64,000 nucleotides of DNA from Diploptera punctata. Lineage: Eukaryota; Arthropoda; Insecta; Blattodea; Blaberidae. The stretch lies in assembly GCA_030220185.1 (NCBI GenBank), contig JASPKZ010002332.1, positions 2,294,001 through 2,358,000 of the forward strand. The letters are read 5' to 3'. Numbering within the stretch: the first letter of the stretch is position 1; each line of letters opens with the position of its first letter. A program made the position numbers and the translations under genes. Under the pieces are notes generated by a model. The model was not told where the DNA came from, ran no database searches, and was given only the letters and a program-made list of their open reading frames with translations. Shown here piece after piece: positions 3,922-61,899 of this stretch.

Positions 3922-4352
3922 TTCCATTCCCGCACTTTAACCTCTCATATTATAGGTACCTTTACATGCCACACGTCACCCTGGTCTTACAGTGGCACGA
4001 TGTTTAGGGAGAGGGATTTTAACTAAGGATTACACACTTATTTTTTGACCACACAAGGACATGGAGGGCCACCCCGATTGAATGATCAACTCAATGTCAG
4101 GGCCTCCTCCGAGACAACACAACGTTAAGACAAAACACACCATTCATAGTAAATATTATGAATATGATAATGATGATTATGATGGCCAGATGATGTTCGG
4201 GGACAGTTTGGGCCTTAAAGTATTCAGATATTTGTCTTACAGGTAAGGAAAAACCCCGAAAAAAAGAACATCCAGGATACTTGTCCCGACCGGGAATCGA
4301 ACCCGGGCCTGCTGCATACGAGGCAACGACGCTACCTCGATATCACAGCTGT
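3922..4352 (-). mobile_element. SINE-B copy, long-tail subtype
   Basis: On the minus strand a tRNA-like head (about 4350-4280, B box read from 'gaccgggaatcgaacccggg') is followed by 'cgaggcaacg', 'cttacaggtaaggaaaaacc' and the long-tail module (4050-4110 'acatggagggccacc', 'cctcctccgagaca'). The end near 3925 is 'cattcccgcactttaacctc'. Best-preserved copy of this subtype in the window. Confidence 0.8.
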
Positions 4353-6540: not shown

Positions 6541-6687
6541 TATTTAATATTAATTTTTTTCTCGTGTGACATTATTTCTTTTTTTTTATATATAATTTTG
6601 AACATCTTGCTGCTCTCTTGAAGAAATCCATTTCCATCGACATAAGTTTTTATTCTAATTTTTTGTTGAATTTATATATATATATAT

Positions 6688-7086
6688 CGGCCGCGGGGAC
6701 TAGTGGTTATGCTCCTTGCCCCTGGTCCCGAGGGTCGCGGGTTCAAACCCGGCCGGGTCGATACATTTTTTAAGAGAAGGAAAAAATCCAAGGAGGAAGT
6801 CCTCCGGGAGGGACTTTAAGCCATGGGTTCCGAGTCTGAAGATTTTCAGGCTCGTAAAAAATCCTTAAGCCTGAATGAAAAGGCCTCTATGCAAAATTTA
6901 CCGAATTTTCCCGTCCTAGTACTACCTTGGTTTCCTAGATGTCAGTATGAGGCGGAACGCTGACCACGGTCCACTCAAAAATGACATCTATACGAAAACA
7001 AGTGTAACTAAATTAATATGGTTCAAATTCTTCCCTGTAGGGGGAGAGCGCCTAAATCTCTGTAAAGGGAAAACATGGCCTTACAA

Positions 7087-10606: not shown

Positions 10607-10754
10607 GTTATATTAGTCTGAGATCCAGCTGCAAGATTACTATGTCATCGAGTGTATGAACAAAATCATTTTTTTTCATAAAATTGTGAATTACTGAATG
10701 CATTTTTGCCGAGTTGCCTATTAAAATTCGGCCGCCAGTATGTTTAATTAAAAT

Positions 10755-10786
<32 letters not shown>

Positions 10787-11476
10787 TTCGAAATAATTTG
10801 ATTCACTTGTTATTAAAATAAATTATAATCCAGCTCGCAGAAATCGATGTATAGAGCTTTAGAAGTTTTGGTTGTCATTGCACACTTGGCCGTAAACCTC
10901 CTCGCGGCTACAGCAGGCTGTGACACCAATCAGTAATAAAATGGCGGTAAGTACGTATTTATTGTTTTATATTGTTCCCTCGCAGCGGAAAGTAAAGCCA
11001 CTGTCCTTTATGTATATTACGTACAATGTATATACAAAAATATATCCAAAAGGTAGTGTTGGTATACATTATACGAAACAAATCACAACATTTTTAATGA
11101 ACTGAACTTTATTTGAAACGATACAAAACAATAAATACGTACTTACCGCCATGTTATTACTGATTGGTGTCACAGCCTGCTGTAGCCGCGAGGAGGTTTA
11201 CGACCAAGTGTGCAATTGCAACCAAAACTTTTCAAGCTCTCTATACATCGATTTCTGCGAACTGGATTATAATTTATTTTAATAACAAGTGAATAAATTA
11301 TTTCGAATAAATTAATGAATTATGTTTTAATTAAACATACTGGCGGCCAAATTTGAATAGGCAACTCGGCAAAAACGTATTCAGTAATTCAAAATGTTAT
11401 GAAAAAAAATGATTTTGTTCATACACTCGATGAACATAGTAATATTGCAGCCGGATCTTGGACTATATGAAATGGT
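10607..11476. repeat. Long fold-back (inverted repeat), arms ~365 bp
   Basis: Left arm about 10607-10976 and right arm about 11115-11476 are reverse complements at high identity by eye (for example 'gtgacaccaatcagtaataa' against its complement at 11150-11175, and 'ccgccagtatgtttaattaa' against 11330-11345). The arms are separated by a 138-base spacer. The left arm also has an extra (TTTA)n run at 10750-10785. No transposase is present. It could be a MITE-like fold-back element or a source of hairpin RNA. Confidence 0.9.
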
Positions 11477-11580: not shown

Positions 11581-11850
11581 ATGCCCATCGAGGTATTATA
11601 TACTGTCATGGACTACAAAATGAATTAGGGTTCTTTATAGTTTGCGTATGCCTTAATATGTAGGGGAAAGAATAAAAAAAAACGTGGTATTCAGCCAATA
11701 GGATTTAAGTGGTTATTCACGATACAAGGATTCGAAGTGAGATTTTACGGAGTTACAGCCAATTAAGATTTCGAAACTAAATTGTAAACTGATTTAAATC
11801 CTTACACAATACATAATTTTATTTAATGTTTGCAATTTGGGTATTTTAAT

Positions 11851-12258
11851 CGGCCGCGGTGGACTAGTGGTTATGCACCTTGCCTCTGGTCGCGAGGGTC
11901 GCGGGTTCAAACCCGGCCGGGGTCGATGGACTTTTTTAGGATGGAAAAATCTAAGGAGCAAGTCCTCCGGGAGGGACTTTAAGCCGTGGGTCCCGAGTCT
12001 GAAGATTTTCAGGCTCGTAAAAGATCCTTAAGCCTGAATGAAAGGCCTCTAAGCAAAATTTACCGAATTTTCCCGTCCTAGTACTACCTTGGTTTCCTAG
12101 ATGTCAGTATGAGGCGGAACGCTGACCACGGATCACTCAAATGACATATATACGAAAACAAGTGTAACTAAATTAGTATGGTTCAAATTCTTCCCTGTAG
12201 GGGCAGAGCGCTTAAATCTCTGTTAAGGGAAACATGGGCTTACAAAAAAGAAGAAGAT
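11851..12258 (+). mobile_element. SINE-A copy (full length)
   Basis: Starts 'cggccgcggtggactagtgg', has the B box 'gggttcaaacccggccgggg' and the complete body, and ends 'gggcttacaaaaaagaagaa'. About 408 bp with few differences from the copies at 26388-26795 and 61147-61552. Confidence 0.95.
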
Positions 12259-12307
12259 GTCGAATTTAATTGATTTTATAAGTAATATAATTTATACTTG
12301 CAAGGTA

Positions 12308-15899: not shown

Positions 15900-17703
15900 C
15901 AGTCGGTTCATGGAATATCGAAGGGTTAAAGCAAAAACTTTCAATGGACAGATGTGTAGAGTTTATTGAGACTTTTGATATATTAGCCCTAGGAGAAACA
16001 TGGTTAAAAGCTAATGAATGCGTAAATCTATGTAATATGAAAGGTTATTTTAAGGGTAATCAAAAGAGAGGAAAGAGAGGTAGATATCCAGGCGGTGTTG
16101 CCATTTTATATAAAGCTAACTTAGACCCATATATTAAAAAGGTAAATATTACTTTAAAAGAGGCAATTTGTATATATTACCATACAGAAAGAGCAGAAAT
16201 GTGTCTGTTGTCTATTTATCGCCAACCACTAAATTCCAGGTATGCCAATCCAAATTTTTTCGTTGAATTGTCTGACTCGTTGGCAGAAATAAAAGATAGG
16301 TTTCCGGAAGCGGGAATAATAATTTTAGGGGACTTTAACTGTAGGATTGGGGAGGAAAATATCACTATAAAATCGGATGATAATGAACATGAGGTGAGGG
16401 TAGGAGAAGCAAAGATAAGATTTTAAATTCAGAAGGAAACCAATTGTTAGCTTTTTGCGATGCATTTGAACTTGAAATTCTGAATGGTAAATATGGGGAA
16501 GATAAAAATGGAGAACTGACATTTATTAATAAAAATGGAAGTAGCGTAATCGATTATTCAATATGCACACAAGACATGATTCCAGTCCTAAGTAATTTCT
16601 GTATAGTTTCCAGAATCGAATCACACCACTTCCCAAACAAACTTATTTTAAATATGAAAGGTATTAGTGAGACAGTTAATGATGAGGTGGCAACAATATT
16701 GCGGCCAATTATCCGTTTCAGGTGGATCGAGGATCTGAGAGAAGAATTTATCAGGAGTTTGGAAACGCTAATACAGGATCTGCAATTAAATGATCTTAGC
16801 GGGGAGGAAATTATTAAAACTTTGACAGAATGTTTTCAAAAAGCAGGGGAAAAATTCAAGGTTAAATACGCAATGAACCAGAAGGACAAAGGGTGGTACA
16901 ATAATGCATGTAGAAAGAAGAAGAAATTTGTCGAAAGTAGTCTTTTAAAGTTTAGAAAAGAAAGCACAGATGAAAGCAGAAAAATTATGCGCAAGAGAGA
17001 AAGGAATATAAAGAATTATTGGCAGAAAAAAACAAAACTAGCATGGCAAAATAAGAAATCCGAAGAAATGAGAGTCGCGACTGAAAGTGGGACCATTGCG
17101 GACATATGGAAAGCGTTAAGGGAACTCAAAGTAAAGTCCATAAATCGGACAAGAATATCGCCCGGGGAATGGAGAAGTTACTTTGATAGGGTGCTGGGAA
17201 ATGAGAGGTTAAGATATAATTAAGGAAATATAGTTGAGATCCCTGACCCAATTCATATTCAATTACTGGATCAGGATATTTCGAAAAATGAAGTGGTTTC
17301 TTCCATTAAATGTTTAAAGAATGGTAAAGCACCTGGAATTGATGGAATACCAGGGGAATTCTTGAAAAATATGATATCATCCAATAAATTATTAGACGTT
17401 TTGAAAACTGCGTTCAACAAACTTTTTAATGGAGGAGATTATCCGGAAGCCTGGGCGACAGGTGTCATCCAACCGCTATACAAAGGGAAAGGTGGGGCAC
17501 AGATACCAGAAACTTATAGGGGAATTTGTCTCTTGTCAGTGTTCGGAAAAATATATTGTAAAGTACTTTACGAACGAATCAGACAATGGGCTAAAGAGAA
17601 CAATAGGCTCTCAAAATATCAGGCAGGTTTTAGAGAAGGGTACTCCACGGTGGACAACCTATTTGTTCTGAGAACATTAATTGATGACAATCTGAAAATG
17701 AAG

Positions 17704-17716
17704 GGGGGTAAATTAT
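17704..17716 (+). repeat. Left target duplication of the tRNA-like array
   Basis: GGGGGTAAATTAT, repeated at 18760-18772. Reading across from the left copy directly into sequence after the right copy keeps the ORF2 frame open, so these are the exact insertion borders. Confidence 0.9.
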
Positions 17717-17737
17717 ATTTGAAGAGAAAAATTATAC

Positions 17738-17810
17738 GCTCAGACCGGGACTTGAACCCGGGACCCTTGGTTCTCCAGACCAAGTGCTCTACCAACTGAG
17801 CTACCTGAGC
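17738..17810 (-). tRNA. tRNA-like gene, array unit 1 (anticodon position GGA)
   Basis: 73 nt folding as a class I cloverleaf: 7-bp acceptor stem (GCTCAGG/TCTGAGC, one G-T), D arm GCTC/GAGC, anticodon stem TTGGT/ACCAA with loop CTGGAGA, T arm CCGGG/CCCGG with loop TTCAAGT. A box TAGCTCAGTTGG and B box GGTTCAAGTCC fit the Pol III consensus. A run of five T lies about 6 bases after the 3' end. Two bases instead of one separate the D and anticodon stems. GGA would be serine, yet there is no long variable arm, so identity and function are doubtful. Confidence 0.75.
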
Positions 17811-18030
17811 AAGTACCGATCTAAACGCAAATCTTTCTCTATATACATTGTAATTCCCGTCCACCAAATGCTATGAAGCCATGCTTCTATCTTGCAAATG
17901 GCGGCTCCTTTATTAAGAAGACATATTTGGGAATTATACATTACAGCCAGTACGGCTTTTTCCTTGTTATTATTATTGATTTCGTACATCTCAATGATGG
18001 ATAAATCATATTTGAAGAGAAAAATTATAC

Positions 18031-18103
18031 GCTCAGACCGGGACTTGAACCCGGGACCCTTGGTTCTCCAGACCAAGTGCTCTACCAACTGAGCTACCTG
18101 AGC
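18031..18103 (-). tRNA. tRNA-like gene, array unit 2
   Basis: Identical in sequence to the unit 1 tRNA-like gene (17738-17810) with the same flanks and T-run; spacing from unit 1 is 293 bases. Confidence 0.75.
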
Positions 18104-18324
18104 AAGTACCGATCTAAACGCAAATCTTTCTCTATATACATTGTAATTCCCGTCCACCAAATGCTATGAAGCCATGCTTCTATCTTGCAAATGGCGGCTC
18201 CTTTATTAAGAAGACATATTTGGGAATTTATACATTACAGCCAGTACGGCTTTTTCCTTGTTATTATTATTGATTTCGTACATCTCAATGATGGATAAAT
18301 CATATTTGAAGAGAAAAATTATAC

Positions 18325-18397
18325 GCTCAGACCGGGACTTGAACCCGGGACCCTTGGTTCTCCAGACCAAGTGCTCTACCAACTGAGCTACCTGAGC
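18325..18397 (-). tRNA. tRNA-like gene, array unit 3
   Basis: Same 73-nt sequence as units 1 and 2. Its upstream leader is complete, but the unit breaks at about 18564, where the inverted segment begins. Confidence 0.75.
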
Positions 18398-18619
18398 AAG
18401 TACCGATCTAAACGCAAATCTTTCTCTATATACATTGTAATTCCCGTCCACCAAATGCTATGAAGCCATGCTTCTATCTTGCAAATGGCGGCTCCTTTAT
18501 TAAGAAGACATATTTGGGAATTATACATTACAGCCAGTACGGCTTTTTCCTTGTTATTATTATTGGTGGACGGGAATTACAATGTATATAGAGAAAGATT
18601 TGCGTTTAGATCGGTACTT

Positions 18620-18692
18620 GCTCAGGTAGCTCAGTTGGTAGAGCACTTGGTCTGGAGAACCAAGGGTCCCGGGTTCAAGTCCCGGTCTGAGC
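18620..18692 (+). tRNA. tRNA-like gene, inverted array segment
   Basis: Same sequence on the opposite strand. Its leader is shortened (18565-18619, starting 'ggtggacgggaattacaatg') but trailer and tail are complete to 18759. The T-run terminator is at about 18698-18702. Confidence 0.75.
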
Positions 18693-18759
18693 GTATAATT
18701 TTTCTCTTCAAATATGATTTATCCATCATTGAGATGTACGAAATCAATAATAATAACAA

Positions 18760-18772
18760 GGGGGTAAATTAT
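18760..18772 (+). repeat. Right target duplication of the tRNA-like array
   Basis: GGGGGTAAATTAT; ORF2 continues from here as GGKLFCAFIDFKMAFDTVD. Confidence 0.9.
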
Positions 18773-20304
18773 TTTGTGCATTCATTGATTTTAAGATGGC
18801 ATTTGATACTGTGGACCGAAGCGCACTTTGGGAAAAATTAAATCGGAAAGGATTGTCTCGTAAAATGATACATGCTTTAATGTCAATTTATAAATATGTT
18901 AAATTTTGTATAAAAGTAGACCAAGGGCACATTACAGAGAGCAGCGAAGCCAATCGGGGAGTGAGACAAGGTTGCATTTTATCACCAATGCTATTTAATC
19001 TATTCGTTGATGATATTGTAGACGTAATGCTAGAAGGAGAAATTGAGGCTCCGGAGATAGGAAATGTTAGAATCCCAGTCCTGTTGTATGCAGATGATTT
19101 AATTATCTGTTCCAAGACAATCAAGGATTGCAAAGAGGTCTTGACCTACTGGAAATATACTGTAGGAATTGGGGATTGACTGTAAATGCTAGTAAGACAA
19201 AAACAATGACATTTAAAAATGGGACGGTTTATGGTAGAACAGAGGAATGGAAATACAGAGATCAAGTTCTTCAAAACGTGAAACATTTCGAATATCTTGG
19301 TACAACGTTGAAAATGAACGGAAAGTGGAAAAAACACATTGATATAGCATTATTTAAAGGGAGGGGACAACTTAACAGTGTACTCGGTATTCTGGGTCGA
19401 GTGCCTGATATTCCAGTCAGCACATTAGAAAAAATGTATGGAGCTATGGTCAGGCCAGTCATGCACTATAGTAGTGCGATTTGGGGTTTCCAAAGAACGG
19501 AAATACTAAATAAGGTATATACGCATTTTCTAAAGTATATTACAGGACTTAGTAAGGCCGTTTCTAACTGTGGAATTTTATATGAATTCGGGTCATTCCA
19601 GGACGATATTAACTGTAAAATTCGTGTACTCAAATACTGGTTGCGAGTAATCCAAGGTGAACAAACAATGCTTAGAGCAATTTGCTACGACCACCAAATT
19701 AAAAACATAGATGTTAAATTTTGGGCAGACGAGGTTAGGAGAGAACTCCAAAAGATTGGGATGGGCTGGATATGGGAAAAAGGGACTGAAAATCGCAAGA
19801 ACGTGTGGAGAAAAATAAGGAGGAGGTACTTAGATGTAAACCAACAAGATACCTTCGCCGAATGTACAGGAAAACGCTCACTGTGTTTACAAAGAGACCT
19901 AAAACACGTCTGGGGAAAAGAATCGTATATACTCAACCTAGGATTTAAGGAGAGGTCAGGGCTTGCTTGGTTTAGGCTAGGGGCATGGAAATTTCTAAAA
20001 ATTAGCGACGATCACGATATGCGAATATGTCCAATGTGCGGGAACTTTGAAGATGAGATACATATGTTAGGAAAATGTAATGATTTAGAATATTGGAGAC
20101 GTCAGTTATTACCGGAAAGATTTCTAAATTCAAATCGGGAAAGATTGGCATGCTACGAGTTATTGGTAAATCCAGAAAATTGGATAAACCTCGGTAAATT
20201 TCTGGACAAAACGCGAAAAATAAGGACAACGCTCATTCATGAATAAATATATGTTATCAAAATGCAATACCATTAATTATTAACAATTATATATAAATTA
20301 ATTA

Positions 20305-26378: not shown

Positions 26379-26387
26379 TCAAGACTA
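26379..26387 (+). repeat. Target duplication of SINE-A insertion
   Basis: TCAAGACTA, repeated at 26796-26804. Confidence 0.85.
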
Positions 26388-26795
26388 TCTTCTTCTTGTA
26401 TCTTGTAAGCCCATGTTTCCCTTAACAGAGATTTAGGCGCTCTCCCCCTACAGGGAAGAATTTGAACCACACTAATTTAGTTATACTTGTTTCGTATATA
26501 TGACATTTAAATGGTCCGTGGTCAGCGTTCCGCCTCATACTGACATCTAGGAAACCAAGGTAGCACTAGGACGGGAAAATTCGGTAAATTTTGCTTAGAG
26601 GCCTTTTCATTCAAGCTTAAGGATCTTTTACGAGCCTGAAAATCTTCAGACTCGGGGCCCACGGCTTAAAGTCCCTCCCGGAGGACTTGGTCCTTGGATT
26701 TTTCCGTCCTAAAAAATCCATCGACGCCGGCCGGGTTTGAACCCGCGATCCTCGGGACCAGAGGCAAGGAGCATAACCACTACCACCGCGGCCGA
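26388..26795 (-). mobile_element. SINE-A copy (full length) with 9-bp duplication
   Basis: On the minus strand runs from the head 'cggccgcggtggtagtggt' to the tail 'cttacaagatacaagaagaa' (seen as tcttcttcttgtatcttgta at 26388). 408 bp, nested in the transposase relic. It defines the true ends of the SINE-A family. Confidence 0.95.
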
Positions 26796-27089
26796 TCAAG
26801 ACTACCTCAAATCGTAATTTCGAAACAAGTGGGTTGGAAGATCAGATCCCATTGAATAGCCTCAAAGGTCACCAGACCTTTCTTTGGCGATACGTAAAAG
26901 GCACTGTTTATCAAACTATTATACAGGACCTGGCTGACCTCCGAAGGTGGATAAGAGACACTTAGAATTCCGTAATTTCTGTAATACTGCGGATCACACG
27001 GAAGGAGATAGAATACCGCCTTGATATTATTCGGGCCACCAGAAGTGCGCATATGGAAAAGTATTGAAATTTGGAGAGTTGAGTTTCTG

Positions 27090-33447: not shown

Positions 33448-33618
33448 CAAAAATTCTTAGTGGCGTTTGTAAACACAGCTTCAAGTTATGAATATAGGTA
33501 ATTCGCTGTTTTTCCTTTATCGAGTGTTTGAAATACGTAAATTTATATTATGTACATTTATTAATTTTTACAAAAAAGTTATTATTTTTATATCTCATTT
33601 TTTCACTGTTACTGTTAT

Positions 33619-35600: not shown

Positions 35601-36776
35601 CGTGGCGAGGGTTTATTTTAATATACTGAGTTTCGTTGTGAAACATCGAAAATTGTGACCACTAGAGCGATTTAAAATTTTCACTTCATGTGAAGCCTAT
35701 AGTCGTTATGCTCCTTGCCTCTGGTCCCGAGGGTCGCGGGTTCAAACCCGGCCGGGGTCGATGGATTTTTTGAATGGAAAAATCCAAGGATCAAGTCCTC
35801 CGGGAGGGACTTTAAGCCGTGGGTCCCAAGTCTGAAGATTTTCAGGCTCGTAAAAGATCATTAAGCCTGAATGAAAGGCCTCTAAGCAAACTTTACCTAA
35901 TTTTCCCGTCCTAGTACTACCTTGGTTTCCTAGATGTCAGTATGAGGCGGAACCCTGACCACAGACCACTCAAATTACATCTATACGAAAACAAGTGTAA
36001 CTAAATTAGTATAGTTCAAATTCTTCCCTGTAGGGAGAGCGCCTAAATCTCTGTTAAGTGAAACATGGGCTTACAAGATACAAGAATAAGTGAAGTCCTA
36101 CACTCCTTTTAGAGGGTGCAATTGTGAATCTAAATCATCCAGAGACCGACTCAATCAAACACGAACATTTTCATCAAAATCGGTGAAGACGTTCAGGCAG
36201 TTTTTTAATTTCGGATTTCAAGTAAACCTCCACTTCTAATTGTCGGGTTTCGCTCATTTTTTGACAATGCGTATCTTGGTCTATTTTAATAGGTCATACT
36301 AATTGTCGTTGTAAAACATCGAAAATTGTTATCGCTAGAGCGATTTTTAAATTTTCACTTCAGGTGAAATCCTACACCTAATGGGTTTACAGGATCCAAT
36401 TGTGAATCTAAGCCATCCAGGGACCCACTTAAACGCACACAAAAAAGTATAATCAAAATCGGCCCAGTCTTATAGGTATTTTTTAAATTGCAGATTTCAA
36501 GTAAACCCCCACTTCTAATGGCCGGATTTCATAGTACTTACCTCGGTTTATTTTAATAGGATATTCCGAGTTTTGTTGTGAAACATCGAATATAGCGATC
36601 GCTAGAGCAATTTTTAAATTTTCGTTTTAGGTGAACTACTACATCTAAGATTTTAGAACGTAACAGATAACGGCTAAACACTCGCCGCATCTGAAATTGC
36701 GTATATACAAATTTTCACGAAGATCGATTGAACGGTTTAGAAGTCTATAAAGGACAAACAGACAGACAAACATACA

Positions 36777-39483: not shown

Positions 39484-39840
39484 TGCAATAATAATAATAA
39501 TAATAGTTTTATTTTAACTGAATTTTAAAGCCATGAACCCTTATCTTCCATTGACTAATATAGGCCTAATAAGGCCTACAATCATGTGTTTTGTAAGTAG
39601 GCCTATTATTAGAGCTAATACTAATACTATTAACACAAATGTGCATTTAAAAATAAATACAATATAGTATTGAAATATAATAGTAATAAATGCATGCACA
39701 ATACAAAGATTTTCTAATTTATGAAATAACTCATTGGATTAAAGAAAAAAGTGACAGTACTGTAGAGCTTATAGAAATGTTTCAATGTTTATTTGAAAGA
39801 AAATATTGTCAGGCAACTCCTGATTTCCAATGTTAAACTT
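38145..39840. other. Long unassigned stretch
   Basis: No supported gene. A minus frame at 38776-38973 (MDETRIMDLMPSVYVKEKES) has protein-like composition but no family I recognise. An (AAT)n tract lies at 39447-39485. Elsewhere AT-rich sequence only. Confidence 0.4.
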
Positions 39841-39842
39841 CT

Positions 39843-40022
39843 TGTAGGAAAACAAGCAGGAAAGCGCCCAATAGGTAGGCAAGAATTAAGTGGGAGAATA
39901 ACATTAACTATGATTTGAGGTAGGTGAATTATACAGGGATAATTGTAAAACATATTCTTAGGATAGGGATATATGGAGAGCTTATTTCCGCGCGGTCATG
40001 ATAGTGCCAATGGGTTAGTGAA
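39843..40022 (+). mobile_element. LINE-3 3' end fragment
   Basis: 'agcgcccaataggtaggcaa', 'gagaataacattaactatga', 'ttatttccgcgcggtcatg', 'tgccaatgggttagtg' match the 3' ends at 1-312 and 60300-60510. About 180 bp remain. Confidence 0.8.
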
Positions 40023-42453: not shown

Positions 42454-43072
42454 AAATGGTAAAGAAACATTAAAATTGGCCAACACACTAAAAAAGCTCG
42501 ATAAGAATATTAATATATCCTACAGAACTGATAATAAATTTAACAATTTAATAAACAACAACATCGAAGAAATAGATGAATTCATCAATAAAGGCATCCA
42601 CAAATTAACATGTACAGACTGCAATATATTCTACATTGGGAAAACTAATAGAAGCTTCAACATTAGATTCAAGGAACATTTCAGAGATTTCATTTATAAT
42701 GGAGGAAAATCAAGTTACGCAAAACATGTAATTCAGGCTGGACACCATATGCATAACATCGATAACATCCTCACAATAGTACATAGAGAAAACATTCCAA
42801 CGAGAATAAATATACTGGAGGAAATCGCAATCCTAAGAGAAATCAACAACAACCTGATTCTCAATTAATACACACCCAGTCCACACAATTCTCTGTACAA
42901 AATTCTCACAACCAAGTCAGTGCTTCAACAAGGGTCAACAAGTACGGACCTAATGCATTCTGCTGATGATGGGACTAGTCCCGAAAGGCCTACAGAGTTT
43001 TAAAACAACTTAAGTTGAGGAGACGGACCTACAAGGTAACTGTTTTATACTTTTTAACCGTGCATCATATTA
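42454..43072 (+). mobile_element. Penelope-like element, 5'-truncated 3' end
   Basis: 619 bp, with the GIY-YIG region in an open frame and a 3' region containing 'ctgatgatgggactagtccc' and 'ttaagttgaggagacggacc'. Flanked by an exact 13-bp duplication. The reverse transcriptase part is missing. Confidence 0.85.
42476..42868 (+). CDS. GIY-YIG endonuclease end of a Penelope polyprotein (partial)
   Basis: In Penelope-like elements this C-terminal domain cuts DNA during insertion. The frame is open for 130 codons from the first ATG and probably starts upstream at the truncation point (42454). It shows KLTCTDCNIFYIGKTNRSF, where CDC...FYIGKT corresponds to the CxxC plus GIY-YIG strands, then 'IRFKEHFRDF' with the conserved arginine, 'SSYAKHVIQAGH' with the usual AxH...H pattern, and 'ILEEIAILRE' with the terminal glutamates. 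No stop or frameshift is seen, so the copy is fairly recent, but without the reverse transcriptase it cannot be autonomous. Confidence 0.85.
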   Translation: MANTLKKLDKNINISYRTDNKFNNLINNNIEEIDEFINKGIHKLTCTDCNIFYIGKTNRSFNIRFKEHFRDFIYNGGKSSYAKHVIQAGHHMHNIDNILTIVHRENIPTRINILEEIAILREINNNLILN

Positions 43073-45794: not shown

Positions 45795-46535
45795 TTATAG
45801 GAATTTTAATGTTAAGTCTTTCTTTGATATATGGGAAGAATAGTCTGCATTGAGCACCCTTATTTGTTGCATTCCACCTATTCTGCCACAGCTGGTGTCC
45901 GTTTCTCTTATTCTACACTTTATTAGTGATTTTGGAATCTTGTTATATATTACATGCAGATTTAGGTCTTTTGCTGCCTCCTTTGCAAGCTCATCGGCAT
46001 ACTCATTTCCAATATCACCTATATGTGCTTTCACCCATTTAAAATGAATTGTCCATTGTTTCTGTTCTAAATTTTTTATCGTTTTTAGAATGTCCTCAAC
46101 TATGCTATTATGTTTGCTATTTTTCTGGAAAAGGGCTAGGGCAACTTTACTATCAGAATATATAGCTGCAGTCTTCTCTTCACCCGAAGTGTTACTTATA
46201 TTCTGTATTTCTTGTAGAGCTTTCAATACAGCTAGTTGTTCGGCCTGATTATTTGAACAATTTCCACCAAGTCTATATTTGAGATTTAAAAAAATATTGT
46301 CAAATTTGTATATCACTGCTGCGGCTCCGACATTTTCTTCCTTTTTACTGCCATCTGTGTAAATTTTTAGAAAATAATTTGTACCTTCCTTAGCCTCTTG
46401 TATTTGGGGTATTTGTGCAGGATGCATCCAATCACTTGGTGTTAAGGGTGCATCATAATTTACATCTCCATGTATAGAATCATACTGTTTGATTATTCCT
46501 TGTATTGTAATATCAATAGGCTGAATACCAGCCAA
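45795..46535 (-). pseudogene. LINE-2 RNase H domain
   Basis: Removes RNA from the RNA-DNA hybrid after reverse transcription. All four acidic positions of type I RNase H are visible: 'FLKIYTDGSKKEENVGAAAV' (first D), 'NNQAEQLAVLKALQEI' (E), 'AAIYSDSKVALALF' (D) and 'WVKAHIGDIGNEYADELAKE' (H and last D). Open for 246 codons. Separated from the reverse transcriptase by a frameshift near 46530. The segment after it (45560-45790) carries a C-x-C-x... H-type tail. Confidence 0.9.
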
Positions 46536-47460
46536 AACGCAAGAAGCTTCATATGAAATTGTTCTGTATGCCTTCGTAATTTTATGTTGAATAATCTCTG
46601 AACTCTCTGAATTTTTGTTAAATTAGTTTTAATTTGTAAGGCGTCTCCCCACACTGGAGCTCCGTATGTCAGAATCGGTTGTATAGCGCCCATATAAATT
46701 GTATGTAGTGCTTTATTTCCAATACCCCACTTTAATTTTGCTGCTTTCGATAATGTGTGAAATATACTTATTGCTTTATCATGGATTTGATTAATATGAT
46801 GATCAAATCTAAATTTTTTGTCAACGTAAATTCCAAGATACTTTAGTGTATCTACTTGTTCTAGCGTTTTGTTATTAAGATAAATGTTTATAGATTCATT
46901 GTTTATTTTCTTTTTCCTGGTTATCATCAGAACTTTCGATTTGGAGTCATTAAAGTTTATTTTATTTTCATTAGCCCATAATTCAATTTTCTTTAAATCC
47001 TGATTACAATAATTTCCTACGTCTAATTTACTCTTCCCTTTTGTCATGATGAGGATATCATCAGCAAAGGCAATTACCTCTGTTCTTTGTGTGAATTGTA
47101 AGTTAAGCATGGAATTATATAAAACATTCCATAGACCTGGTCCGCAACAAGATCCTTGTGGACAGCCCTTCTCAACTTGTTTTTCTGTTTGATATTCATT
47201 TGACGATAGGCTTGCTGTTCTATTTTTGAAATAATCCTGACATAGTCTATATAAGTTACTTGGACATTCCATTTCTCTTAGGTTATTTAAAATGGTAGGC
47301 CACCACGCAGCGTCAAATGCACCTTTAACATCCAGGCTTACTAGAACGATGTATCCAAATTGCGGTAAATTACGTTTGACAAAGCTTTTCATTTCCATAG
47401 CTGCATCCACCGTACTTTTTTGGGCCATAAATCCAAACTGTCTTACATTAAAAGTTTTCT
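46493..47460 (-). pseudogene. LINE-2 reverse transcriptase, catalytic half
   Basis: Copies element RNA at the nick. Visible: 'VLVSLDVKGAFDAAWWPTIL' (motif A), 'QVEKGCPQGSCCGPGLWNVL' (motif B), 'TEVIAFADDILIMTKGKSKL' (catalytic FADD), 'KVLMITRKKK', 'LKYLGIYVDKKFRFDHHI' and 'QPILTYGAPVWGDAL' (thumb). One open frame of 311 codons. The upstream half of the domain is in another frame, and the C-terminus runs out of frame before the RNase H. Confidence 0.9.
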
Positions 47461-48862
47461 TGAATTTATGTGATGTTCAATCCTATTTATCATCAATTTC
47501 TCGAGGATTTTTCCATTTATATTCAACAAGCTTATTGGACGATATTTTGTAACGCTGTGAGTTTCTGTTTTACCATGCTTAATTATTGGAATTATCACCG
47601 ATCGCTTCCATCTTATAGGAAATATACTATCACTGAGACACTTATTGTATAGTGCAGTGAAGAAGCAGGGGAACATTCTAAAGGCATACAATAAGATATC
47701 ACTAGTTATTCCGTCTTCTCCAGGCGATTTTCTCGGATTGAAATTCTGCAATATGTTTAATATTTCTGCAGTTGTGAATTCTATGTCCTCCGGTGTATTC
47801 ATAGGTTCTGTTGTAAGTCTTCTTAATTGTTTTGTGTCTCTCAGTGTCATCCTGCTCACTGTCTTGCGGGAAAAAGTGTTTTAACATATATTGCAATGTG
47901 TCAGAAGTATCTACGGTGTATGTTCCATCTTCCTTTCTTAGTGTAGTGAGGGTATTGTTCCCTTTCAGTTTTCTAGCCACAATCTTGTATACTGCTGTCC
48001 ATGGATTTGATCCGTCAGTCGCGCTACAAAATTCTTTCCATGATTTTAGTTTTTCAGTATTTATTTTTGTTTGATACTGCTTGTTGCCATCCATGTATAG
48101 ATTTCTTCTGACTTCCCTCAGTTGCTCATTGTTATAAGTTCTTTGATAACGTCTTCTTAATGCATTCACCCTTTTCCTCATAACAGTTAGTTCTGGTGTC
48201 CACCATGGAACAGACTTCCCTCTAATCTTTCGTTTATTTCCTCTGTTTATTTTAAATGTTTCGTTACATGCTTCTTTTATACTATTATAATATATGTCTA
48301 TTATATGTTTGAGATTTGAATGATTTCTTACTTTATGAGCTAGTTCTTCATCCATTTTTTCCTGGCTGTGTATACAATTAAAGTTTAATTTAAATTTTTC
48401 CACTAAAGTGTTGCCAAATTGTTCATAATTTCCACCATTTGTTATGTATCGTATTCCTTCAAACGTATATATTAGATTTTGTATTACATTAGTTATCTTA
48501 AACGAAATTATTTTATGATCAGAGCAACTTTCTTCCTCTCCACAGGTCCATTCCTTTATATCTTTCAACAGTTTATTATTGACAATAGTCAAGTCTACCC
48601 AAATTCTTCCTTCTTGCGTTTCAAAGGTTGGCACACTATTATTTTCATTTACAATATGTAGATTATTTACTATAATAAATTCTTCCATGCATCTGCCTCT
48701 TTCGTTAGTAATTTTATCATACCATAATTTATTTCTAGCATTGCTATCCACTGAAATTATTAATCCATAGCCATTAGTGTGGTCTATAATTTTTTCGATT
48801 TTTTGTATATCTTCATTTATATCACACAGTCCATCGAAGTACATACTTACACCAAAGAATGT
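47443..48862 (-). pseudogene. LINE-2 endonuclease C-terminus and first reverse transcriptase motifs
   Basis: The 5' end starts within the AP-endonuclease: 'GVSMYFDGLCDINEDIQKIE', 'GLIISVDSNARNKLWYDKIT', 'WVDLTIVNNKLLKDIKEWTC', 'ESCSDHKIISFKI' (conserved SDH). A linker follows with 'KIRGKSVPWWTPELTVMRKR' and, after a frameshift near 47860, the reverse transcriptase entry 'NPRKSPGEDGITSDILLYAF', 'WKRSVIIPIIKHGKTE', 'YRPISLLNINGKILEKLM'. Upstream of 48862 the frame runs into the TATG tract, which only gives His-Thr-Tyr repeats and is not part of the protein. Confidence 0.85.
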
Positions 48863-48965
48863 ATGTATGTATGTACGTATGTATGTATGTATGTATGTAT
48901 GTACGTATGTACGTATGTATGTATGTACGTATGTATGTATGTATGTATCTATGTATGTATGTATT
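48860..48965 (+). repeat. (TATG)n microsatellite at 5' side of LINE-2
   Basis: TATG/TACG repeats of about 105 bp. With 45032-45424 it brackets LINE-2. Confidence 0.95.
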
Positions 48966-48969
48966 TTGA

Positions 48970-50040
48970 TCGATGACTCTGCAAATGACACGTAAGCACA
49001 AGTTTGTCCTCTAAGCATTCTTAAGAGGGCAAGGGAATAAGAAGAGGTGAAAAATAAAAATACAACACTTATCGCGTTTATATAGGTACTGTAATAAACT
49101 AAAATATAAAGTAAATACAAATATGCTTAAGCACTAAATATTGAAACCTACATGAAATACATAGGCCTATATAAGGCAAAATAAGTAAAAATGCAAACAC
49201 GTTTAAAACAATGTAAAATATATTTAAGATTTATCTTAGTTCTGAATTCCAAAGTAATAATTATATAATAATCCATGACTGGTGTTTCCAAGAAATATTA
49301 TGATCACCGGCCCTAAAAGTCTAATGAATTCCGAAATTGAACAGTAGCTGCAGTGAAATATGATTGATGAATAAAGTAAAGTGTACCGAGCGTAAGCAAA
49401 TGATGTAACTTCATATTTTACAGTATTGGAACCAATTGCCCGGCATGAGATAAAAGAGAAGGAAATTTAACAAGTCACAAAAAGTTTAAAAATGTCGATT
49501 GACTCTTCTACTTTAAAAAAAACAAATGTTAGTATAAAAAGTCATAATACTGCAAAGTATTAATTAGGTACCATTCATCTAGAGTGTTTACCTACTGTAA
49601 AAGAGTTGGAAAGTCAATAATTGAAGTGTAATCATGGAGTAGAATATTAGCAATTTTCATGCTAAGTGGGACAGCATATATTCCAACTCTGTCGTCATGG
49701 AGAAAGGCAATTCAGTTCCTAAATACTGCAGGTCGATTCACACAGCTAAAATTGGGAAACCGTAATAGGGATTTTTAACGAAATTGAATTCGCCCTCCAT
49801 GTAGCCTATAGAGATCACATCGCTCTTTACTTCTGCTGGACTTAGTTCTGGAACAATTTTTATGAATCCAAATAAAAAAAAAGTGATTATATATTGCATC
49901 ATTTATATAATCACAGTACGTACCGTACTTATTTTTAAATTTGGTGATTGCTTTATTTATTTTGCCTTACTATACATTACTTTACTTTACTTCCTTCCAG
50001 TAACACAGATCTAATTTCCATGAACTTGCAATGAGCGAAT
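48970..50040. other. Unassigned spacer
   Basis: AT-rich, no recognised gene or repeat. Confidence 0.4.
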
Positions 50041-50430: not shown

Positions 50431-50549
50431 ACTTACTTACTCACTGCCACTATCGAACCCGTAGGTTTATGGCCGCGCGGACATAAGCTCTCCATACATC
50501 CCTATCCTGAGCTAATGCTTTCCAATCATTCCCTGTATAATCTACTTCC

Positions 50550-50560
50550 CTCAAATCATA
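50550..50560 (+). repeat. 11-bp duplication of tRNA-like insertion
   Basis: CTCAAATCATA, repeated at 50864-50874. Intact LINE-3 copies (39905-39920, 60370-60385) show the unsplit target. Confidence 0.9.
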
Positions 50561-50863
50561 TTTTTATTATTGATTTCGTACATCTCATTGATGGTTAAAT
50601 CATATTTGAAGAGAAAAAAGCCGTACTGGCTGTAATGTATAATTCCCAAATATGTCTTCTTAATAAAGGAGCCGCTATTTGCAAGATAGAAGCATGGCTT
50701 CACAGCATTTGGTGGATGGGAATTACAATGTATATAGAGAGAGATTTGCGTTTAGATCGGTACTTGCTCAGGTAGCTCAGTTGGTAGAGCACTTGGTCTA
50801 GAGAACCAAGGGTCCCGGGTTCAAGTCCCGGTCTGAGCGTATAATTTTTCTCTTCAAATATGA
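50561..50863. mobile_element. Single-unit tRNA-like element, internally inverted
   Basis: 303-bp insert. 50561-50618 is the trailer/tail of the unit on the minus strand ('ttattattgatttcgtacat', 'atatttgaagagaaaa'). From 50619 the unit runs on the plus strand: leader, tRNA-like gene, T-run and 'cttcaaatatga'. Near-terminal inverted copies of ATATTTGAAGAGAAAA result. About 95% like the array at 17717-18759. Confidence 0.9.
50766..50838 (+). tRNA. tRNA-like gene, single-unit copy (anticodon position AGA)
   Basis: Same 73-nt cloverleaf as the array copies with one change in the anticodon loop (CTAGAGA instead of CTGGAGA), giving AGA, also a serine anticodon, again without the long variable arm that serine tRNAs carry. 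A and B boxes are intact. TTTTT follows 6 bases after the end. Confidence 0.75.
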
Positions 50864-51224
50864 CTCAAATCATAGTTAATGTTATTCTCCTACCTCATTC
50901 TTGGTCAACCAACTGGGCATTTTCCCTCTGGCTATCCTACAAGAAGCTTCCATGCACGTCTTTCATTACCCATACGAGCAACATGTCCTGCCCATCGCAG
51001 TTTACGAGACTTAACTGTTCTTATTATATCTGGCTTTCTGAGGAGACCATGTAGATCGTTGTTATGTAGTCTTCTCCATTCATCTGTCTGTTCATCTCTC
51101 TTTCGTCAAAAAATTTTCCTAAGAACTTTATTCTCAAATACTTGTAATCTCCTTTCCTCCCTTAAAGTAAGAGTCCATGTTTCGCACCCATATAATATAA
51201 CTGGTAGAATAATAGTTTTATATA

Positions 51225-51560
51225 TCCATCCATAGTAATCTGCCCGAAGGCAGGTCCTTCACTGCAATCATAGCATTTTCATGCTATGGTTGCAGCTTTA
51301 CTAGGGAATTGTAGGTGTGGTAGCTTCCCGTTTGCTTTCCACACCGGTGAAGGATGATGATAATGATAAAGATGAAGATGATGATGGCCATATGATTTCG
51401 GGGATCGTTTGGGCCTTATAGTTTTCCTGACATTTGTCTTACAGGTGAGGAAAAGCCCCGATAAAAACCTCACCCAGAAAAACTGCCCCGACCGGGGATC
51501 GAACCCGGGCCCGCTGCGTGACAAAGCAGCACACTACCTCGAGACCACAGCGGTGGATTT
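51225..51560 (-). mobile_element. SINE-B copy in nest, 10-bp duplication
   Basis: Complete minus-strand SINE-B: 3' end 'ccatccatagtaatctgccc', internal TGATGA stretch, head 'gaccggggatcgaacccggg' and 'ctcgagaccacagcggtgg'. Flanked by GTTTTATATA at 51215-51224 and 51561-51570. Confidence 0.95.
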
Positions 51561-52115: not shown

Positions 52116-52119
52116 TAAT

Positions 52120-52520
52120 CGGCCGCGATGGACTAGTGGTTATGCTCCTTGTCCCCCGAGGGTCGAGGGTTCAAACCCGGCCGAGGTCGATGGATTTTTT
52201 AGGATGGAAAAATCCAAGGAGCAAGTCCTCGGGGAGGGACTTTAAGCTGTGGGTCCCGAGTCTGAAGATTTTCAGTCTCGTAAAAAAATCTTTAATCCTG
52301 AATGAAAAGCCTCTAATAAAAATTTACCGAATTTTCCCGTCCTAGTACTACCTTGGTTTCCTAGATGTCAGTATGAGGCGGAACGCTGACCACGGACCAC
52401 TCAAAATGACATCTATACGAAAACAAGTGTAACTAAATTAGTATGGTTCAAATACTTCCCTGTAGGGGGAGAGAGCCTAAATCTCTGTAAAGGGAAAACA
52501 TGGGCTTACAATACAAAAAA
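52120..52520 (+). mobile_element. SINE-A copy (full length)
   Basis: Starts 'cggccgcgatggactagtgg', B box 'gggttcaaacccggccgagg', complete body, end 'atgggcttacaatacaaaaa'. AATTGT flanks both sides and may be part of the target duplication. Confidence 0.95.
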
Positions 52521-59807: not shown

Positions 59808-60510
59808 CAATAAAACTAAATATATGGTCACACATAGAAATACGTTATATAACGGAAGTGGACAGCTAATGACAAATGAGGGATGTTTTGAGGAAGTGGC
59901 TGAATTCAAATACCTAGGAACAATAATCACAAATAGGAATGAGATGAACAAAGAAATTGAACATGGATATGCGTGCTATTATGCATTACAGAGACTCTTG
60001 ACGTCCCAACTCCTTTCAAAAAACGTTAAACTGAAAATATATGAAACTACTATTATACCAGTTATATTATATGGATGCGAAACATGGACTCTTACTTTAA
60101 GGGATGAAAGGAGATTACGAGTATTTGAGAATAAAGTTCTTAGGATTTTTTTTATCAAAGATAGATGAACAGACAGGTGAATGGAGAAAACTACATAACA
60201 GTGAACTACATGGTATTTATAGGAAGCCAGATATAATAAGAACAGTTAAGTCTCGTAGATTGCGATGGGCAGGACACCCCTGGCACGAATAGGGAATAAA
60301 AGACGTGCATGGAATCTACAGAGGGGAAACGCCCAGTTGGTAGACCAAGAATGAGGTGGGAGAATAACATTAAATATGATTTGAGGGAAGTAGATTATAC
60401 AGGGAATGATTGGGAAACATCTCAGGATAGGGATGTATGGAGAGATTATGTCCGCGCGGCCATAAACCTACGGATTCGATAGTGCCAGTGAGTTAGTTAG
60501 TTAATTATTG
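59808..60510 (+). pseudogene. LINE-3 (RTE-like) reverse transcriptase C-terminal end
   Basis: Best copy of the family end: 'FEEVAEFKYLGTIITNRNEM' (YLG motif of the connection), 'LKIYETTIIPVILYGCETWT', 'LRDERRLRVFENKVLRIFF', then after a +1/-1 slip 'GEWRKLHNSELHGIYRKPDI', 'SRRLRWAGH', and shifted frames of the GRPRMRWENNI-type tail. It ends with 'ggccataaacctacggattc', 'gccagtgagttagttagtta'. Missing everything upstream of the catalytic FADD region. Confidence 0.9.
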
Positions 60511-60940: not shown

Positions 60941-61146
60941 TATCATAAGTAACGACACGAATGATTTCCAAATCATCGATAAATTCACGATGTCACTAAG
61001 TGACAAGTGAATTTATCTAGAGAATTTGGAAATCAAGAGTGGCATTTGTCAGGACTATTTAACGAATAAAATTAAGTTGTTTACTCACAAATCATTATTT
61101 AAATGTAGTTATTTTTAAATATTTATATATTTAATGGACCGCGGAT

Positions 61147-61552
61147 CGGCCGCGGTGGACTAGTGGTTATGCTCCTTGCCTCTGGTCCCGAGGGTCGCGG
61201 GTTTAATCCCGGCCGGGGTCGATGGATTTTTTTAGGACGGAAAATCCAAGGAGCAAATCCTCCGGGAGGGACTTTAAGCCGTGGGTCCCGAGTCTGAAGA
61301 TTTTCAGGCTCATAAAAGATCCTTAAGCCTGAATGAAAAGGCCTCTAGGCAAAATTTACCGAATTTTCTCGTCCTAGTACTACCTTGGTTTCCTAGATGT
61401 CAGTATGAGGCGGAACGCTGACCACGGACCACTCAAATGACATCTATACGAAAACAAGTGTAACTAAATTAGTATGATTCAAATTCTTCCCTGTAGGGGA
61501 AGAGCGCCTAAATCTCTGTTAAGGGAAATATGGGCTTACAAGATACAAGAAG
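61147..61552 (+). mobile_element. SINE-A copy (full length), 12-bp duplication
   Basis: Starts 'cggccgcggtggactagtgg', ends 'gcttacaagatacaagaag'. The duplication ATATATTTAATG lies at 61125-61136 and 61553-61564, with ten extra bases (GACCGCGGAT) between the left copy and the SINE head. Confidence 0.95.
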
Positions 61553-61899
61553 ATATATTTAATGTAAACGGCTATGTTTGAAAACAAATGAGGAACGTTT
61601 GTTATGTTTCATTTGTTCATCGCTGCAACCAGATCATGTTATTTATTGCCAAAGGATCGCAATATTGTAAGAATGCACTCTAGTGGAGAAAAAATGAAAC
61701 ACATCAAACTGTTTATAACAAACATTATAGGTTATTAATTAATTTCTGATATTCTATGATGTAAATATGTCAATTATATTTTTCTGGAACGTAAATACCT
61801 GGGAAATAACACGTTTAAGAAAGTGCAAACAGTGGTTTCTTTTTATTGTGGTACAATCAATTACTACAAATTTTTTCTATTATATCCCGCAAGCAGTAT

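Follow-up and report, generated by a model that had tools for sequence, protein, structure and literature searches.

How a short tandem repeat carrying a tRNA-like gene came to lie inside a LINE, and which enzyme placed it there, is the question raised by a locus in Diploptera punctata. The window analysed here is a 64,000-nt stretch of contig JASPKZ010002332.1, in whose numbering all positions are given. The insert noticed first (copy 1) is 1043 bp long, occupies 17717-18759 inside a LINE reverse transcriptase gene, and is flanked by exact 13-bp duplications. Its parts are:

17704..17716, unstranded: left target duplication of copy 1, exact 13 bp, GGGGGTAAATTAT
17717..18565, minus strand: inverted block of copy 1, 849 nt, holding (in the tRNA-sense direction) a 15-nt tail piece, then 293 + 294 + 247 nt
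18566..18759, plus strand: sense block of copy 1, 194 nt, unit positions 100-293 with the possible hairpin and the A/T-rich tail end
18760..18772, unstranded: right target duplication of copy 1, exact 13 bp, GGGGGTAAATTAT

The 15-nt piece of the inverted block is the tail of an upstream unit, and the last unit of that block is cut at position 247. A first-pass annotation of this DNA had described repeated units and an inverted part between exact 13-bp duplications, with only the tail-proximal segment in sense, and this description is borne out by a 294-nt direct repeat in three copies (spacing 293 and 294), by three long inverted pairs with arms of 162-199 nt, by the identical duplications at both sides, and by the division into an inverted and a sense block. 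The joins between units are identical, and one 1-nt indel is the sole difference among the copy 1 pieces. The flanks, once joined, give an open reverse transcriptase frame, as had been claimed for removal of the insert, although the host LINE is broken elsewhere by a stop at 17221-17223 and a frame change near 19098-19179. The LINE piece to the left of the insert gives an RVT_1 match under the Pfam cut-off and the piece to the right one of 67.8 bits, while a protein search with the host LINE passed none of 1165 candidates.

The repeated unit (U) measures 293 nt in the tRNA-sense direction, counted from GGAAAAAGCC, which follows AACAA at the tandem join. Along it are found, in order, an upstream region, the tRNA-like gene (U154-227), TTTTT (U233-237), and a 3' tail containing a possible small hairpin (U249-280), followed by the A/T-rich end AATAATAATAACAA. 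The TTTTT lies 5 nt past each tRNA and is the sole run of at least four T in the unit. The tRNA-like gene had been given as 73 nt, one to a unit; copy 1 does hold four such genes, with a corrected length of 74 nt by Rfam RF00005, and a fifth lies in another insertion described below:

17737..17810, minus strand: tRNA-like gene, copy 1, Rfam RF00005, 62.4 bits
18030..18103, minus strand: tRNA-like gene, copy 1, Rfam RF00005, 62.4 bits
18324..18397, minus strand: tRNA-like gene, copy 1, Rfam RF00005, 62.4 bits
18620..18693, plus strand: tRNA-like gene, copy 1, Rfam RF00005, 62.4 bits
50766..50839, plus strand: tRNA-like gene, copy 2, Rfam RF00005, 60.1 bits

A 26-nt pattern taken from the tRNA occurs five times in the window and never in 100 shuffles. 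The stretches at U161 and U206 are A-box-like and B-box-like, respectively. The label Ser given by ARAGORN rests on a GGA triplet (AGA in copy 2), and a working tRNA-Ser gene was rejected; the sequence is not taken as a serine tRNA because the form is 74 nt without a long variable arm and seems, by eye, to have a 6-bp anticodon stem. A separate ARAGORN call, tRNA-Thr at 4282-4349 on the minus strand, is absent at the Rfam gathering score and is probably spurious.

The hairpin folds no better than shuffled sequence (52 of 200 shuffles fold as well in copy 1, z -0.66, and 15 of 200 in copy 2, z -1.50), and both copy 1/copy 2 substitutions within it lie outside its pairs. Rfam calls no hammerhead in the unit at E up to 5, a pattern search for a CTGANGA core with downstream GAAA finds none in it save one spurious one-mismatch hit, and none of the other catalogued ribozymes is found in it. 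A chance ORF over the unit passed none of five candidates in a protein search. No exact pattern match to the unit was present in viral, bacterial and archaeal contig collections, a negative which says little given what these collections contain.

A second insertion of the unit, absent from the first-pass annotation, is present in the window at 50564-50863 and consists of a single unit (copy 2):

50550..50563, unstranded: target duplication of copy 2, exact over 11 bp, or 14 bp if one mismatch is allowed
50564..50618, minus strand: tail piece of copy 2, unit 233-287, 53/55 identical to U
50615..50863, plus strand: body of copy 2, unit 3-251, 244/249 identical to U
50864..50877, unstranded: second target duplication of copy 2, partner of the one at 50550-50563
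60261..60501, plus strand: paralogous empty site, an uninterrupted copy of the LINE 3' repeat that holds copy 2

The body and the tail piece of copy 2 stand head-to-head, their join falling within a run of A. Read on the minus strand, the order is duplication, inverted body from U251 to U3, sense tail from U233 to U287, and duplication; the copy differs from the unit by seven substitutions. One LINE 3' region is present in several copies in the window (50431-51225, 60037-60501, 39835-39999 and 78-313); copy 2 lies in one of them and its empty site in another.

Other repeats surround these insertions. An interspersed repeat of about 400 bp has six copies in the 64 kb (6686-7086, 11849-12270, 26387-26796, 35700-36086, 52118-52511 and 61145-61563), with at least 91.7% identity to one of them, and four weaker partial matches near 33617, 50161, 53724 and 57449. 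A long imperfect palindrome lies at 10614-11465, where an alignment of 883 positions to the reverse complement of the stretch itself shows an 82% match. A LINE on the minus strand at 45798-49126, its frames broken and overlapping, retains matches to endonuclease (72.8 bits), reverse transcriptase (105.5 bits) and RNase H (69.8 bits).

The unit is a short non-coding retroelement of about 293 nt, inserted by target-primed reverse transcription. The first-pass annotation had proposed such copying of an RNA, and the proposal is supported in the form of an RNA-mediated insertion with both target strands primed on the RNA. In both insertions in the window the body is inverted relative to a sense tail. 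The inverted block of copy 1 starts at U247 (up to 249) and that of copy 2 at U251, 2-4 nt apart, and the opposite outer ends lie at U293 and about U287, respectively, 36-46 nt beyond the inner ends (n=2). The head-to-head joins are at U279/U100 in copy 1 and at about U3/U233 in copy 2, with 3 (TTG) and 4 (A/T run) common bases, respectively, by eye; these joins differ, so the inversions do not go back to a single template that was already inverted. The two cDNAs overlap by 19 nt in copy 2 (U233-251), while in copy 1 they overlap by 148 nt if drawn from the same unit or are separated by a gap if drawn from neighbouring units, and the sequence fits either.

Both target sites resemble unit 243-258, each with a score of 9, and the paralogous empty site scores 11. 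This likeness carries little weight, because random stretches (n=4000) match too often, 63% of them reaching 9 anywhere and 10.8% at that place, and 18.8% and 4.1%, respectively, reaching 11.

As to the enzyme, the comparison of the ends leads us, with confidence a little better than even, to regard a Penelope-like enzyme as the most likely inserter of the two copies. Penelope elements carry direct pLTRs and an adjacent inverted pLTR, most commonly head-to-head, with an optional 31-bp tail on one inverted pLTR and target duplications of 8-10 bp in the examples given (PMC3846280). The purified Penelope protein is described as cutting and extending both strands, preferring ATT in its target, and starting at two adjacent internal RNA sites, the interval between which corresponds to the 30-40 bp tail (PMC11167929). 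The internal starts, near-fixed as far as two copies show, the tail of about 40 nt, the tandem units and the head-to-head inverted end copy together follow this published plan, and for this reason a Penelope enzyme is favoured. Tandem units with an adjacent inverted head-to-head copy are found in copy 1; copy 2 has one unit, with the inverted piece present. Penelope-like elements also share the priming of both target strands (PMC3846280, PMC11167929). They differ in that the unit described here has no ORF or hammerhead and has a tRNA-like gene inside, a tail of 36-46 nt and duplications of 13 and 11-14 bp. A Penelope-like remnant, representing a candidate type of mobilising enzyme, lies in the window:

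42455..42868, plus strand: terminal part of a Penelope-like ORF, whose GIY-YIG match is weak and short of the Pfam cut-off (E 0.018)

A protein search with this remnant passed 1 of 54 candidates, at 53% identity, and a search of phage records gave no match. It is followed by a hammerhead-like core (CTGATGA...GAAA) at 42963-42986, near which Rfam calls no hammerhead.

Against the Penelope reading stand the sample of two copies from one window, and the inner start of copy 1, which is the best-annealing register, as twin priming predicts. The Penelope descriptions drawn on here give no rate for inverted copies. A/T-repeat tails are also usual for some LINEs, and a search of the window for elements sharing the unit tail found none above 10 shuffled controls per query. 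The reading is further weakened by the tail-side cut of copy 1 (GAA/GGGGG), which is without an A/T-rich motif, given the ATT preference of the protein studied (PMC11167929).

The strongest alternative, one we regard as a serious if less probable contender, is that reverse transcription by a LINE enzyme began at the A/T tail of an RNA of one or several units, and that the second target strand paired within this RNA and served as primer for the remainder, copied the opposite way. Such twin priming was the mechanism named in the first-pass annotation, and it is favoured by copy 1, where the 3' end of the target forms 10 pairs with the RNA (8 standard and 2 G-T) exactly where the cDNA starts, none of the other 293 registers annealing as well. 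In copy 2, by contrast, the start is not an annealing site: the pairing run at U251 is 4, which 13 of 293 registers equal or better, and the other primer, given the 14-bp duplication, pairs best at register 243 (10/10), where no cDNA starts.

The general plan of the insertions, an inverted part with a sense tail part, suits twin-primed L1, as do their duplications of 13 and 11-14 bp, inverted L1 inserts having mostly 10-20 bp duplications (PMC12016303, PMC4245944). LINE remnants are plentiful in the window. The 19-nt overlap in copy 2 is of the order reported for L1 (median 12 bp, with quartiles of 4-17 bp), and L1 inversion breakpoints also peak (PMC12016303). What sets the present insertions apart from 5'-inverted L1 is the shortness of the element, the inversion of both copies and their nearly equal inner starts; agreement within 4 nt has a chance of 9/293 if starts are uniform. 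In one human study, 5' inversions affect 18-22% of L1 insertions (germline 165 of 897, somatic 328 of 1495) and one of 5936 Alu insertions, against two of two short copies here, although these human rates may not hold for the present host (PMC12016303). In a cell assay, 5' inversions arose solely with L1 in human cells, bar one Nimb insert (PMC4245944). LINE twin priming is doubtful because it poorly explains inversion in both copies of a ~290-nt element together with near-fixed ends; the inner site of copy 1 speaks for the earlier proposal.

An ordinary tRNA-derived SINE, in multimeric form and inverted twice by chance, is very unlikely. An A box and a B box do appear to be in place. On the other hand, the tRNA is internal and TTTTT precedes the tail, in place of a 5' tRNA head with a Pol III transcript running to the tail. 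Because TTTTT follows the tRNA, ordinary Pol III transcription would stop short of both the tail and the next unit, and its product would also lack the first 153 nt. Unless termination leaks, such a product would not have served as template for the insertions. Multimeric SINEs have been described (PMC10702118), but two inversions in two copies would be left to chance. A search of the window for a 3' end common with a partner LINE gave no match above 10 shuffles per query. Judged by its layout, the unit is no standard SINE, polymer and tail not being expected products of ordinary Pol III transcription, in agreement with the first-pass annotation; its picture of a Pol III-competent polymer moving as one piece is not supported, given the TTTTT 5 nt past each tRNA and the monomeric copy 2.

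Slightly less probable still is a satellite in genomic tandem arrays, with both loci arising by DNA recombination or capture, for even though tandem tRNA-like repeats are known (about 360 nt in newt and 250 nt in Rana, a third of ~200 nt being doubtful; PMC10702118) and the copy 1 pieces differ by only one 1-nt indel, both copies have target duplications with the tail adjoining one of them, one has a paralogous empty site, and the outer ends are nearly equal in two unrelated targets.

Several of the components have known relatives, namely tandem tRNA-like repeats, SINE multimers, metazoan retrozymes, and LTR miniatures with tRNA-like LTRs. In the amphibian repeats (newt PolIII/TAN and Rana/polIII), too, a tRNA-like sequence lies inside a unit of 250-360 nt repeated in tandem (PMC10702118); the cockroach unit differs in being dispersed, with target duplications, a tail and an inverted end piece at its insertions. 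Helenus, an LTR miniature, also has a tRNA-like sequence in the repeated unit of a non-autonomous retroelement; its duplications are 4-5 bp, and its internal region has a primer-binding site and polypurine tract (PMC10886601). Assignment to Helenus or other LTR miniatures was rejected, with duplications of 13 and 11-14 bp here and units joined directly without an internal region. Metazoan retrozymes are similar in form, being ~300-nt, non-coding, tandem, low in G+C, and suspected of using Penelope enzymes (PMC7229834, PMC7761336, PMC8969392). The type I hammerhead of retrozymes is not found in the present unit, which has a tRNA-like module instead, and since it has no hammerhead the unit is not a retrozyme by definition. 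Among the literature matches listed (titles and abstract starts, with few subscription papers covered), none described a tRNA-bearing element whose ends are of the Penelope type.

Under the favoured Penelope reading, an RNA of one to several units, as a tandem transcript or a circle, would be bound via its tail by a Penelope-like enzyme. One cDNA would start from the outer tail end, near unit 287-293, and the other from the inner site, near unit 247-251, and the two would meet head-to-head through a few common bases (microhomology). The template would probably be something other than a Pol III transcript. The identical joins and near-identical units of copy 1, together with the seven substitutions that separate copy 2, suit a template in tandem or circular form, and equally a homogenised source array. 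The unit would then act like a metazoan retrozyme, with the tRNA-like module in place of the hammerhead. A fuller model, which we offer tentatively and consider less likely than not, is that of a minimal parasite of Penelope-like retrotransposons, consisting of a tandem tRNA-bearing unit whose RNA would be multimeric or circular, perhaps cut and re-joined via tRNA-processing enzymes and tRNA ligase without a ribozyme, and on which the Penelope enzyme would prime both target strands at two fixed sites in the tail.

What is at stake is the identity of the enzyme that mobilises short, tandem non-coding elements in animals; a review describes metazoan retrozyme repeats as having no conserved motif that would reveal the partner (PMC7761336). 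Insertions that keep the two-site, head-to-head plan of Penelope would let the partner be tested with nothing more than genome sequence, and the ribozyme-based elements would gain a counterpart based on a tRNA.
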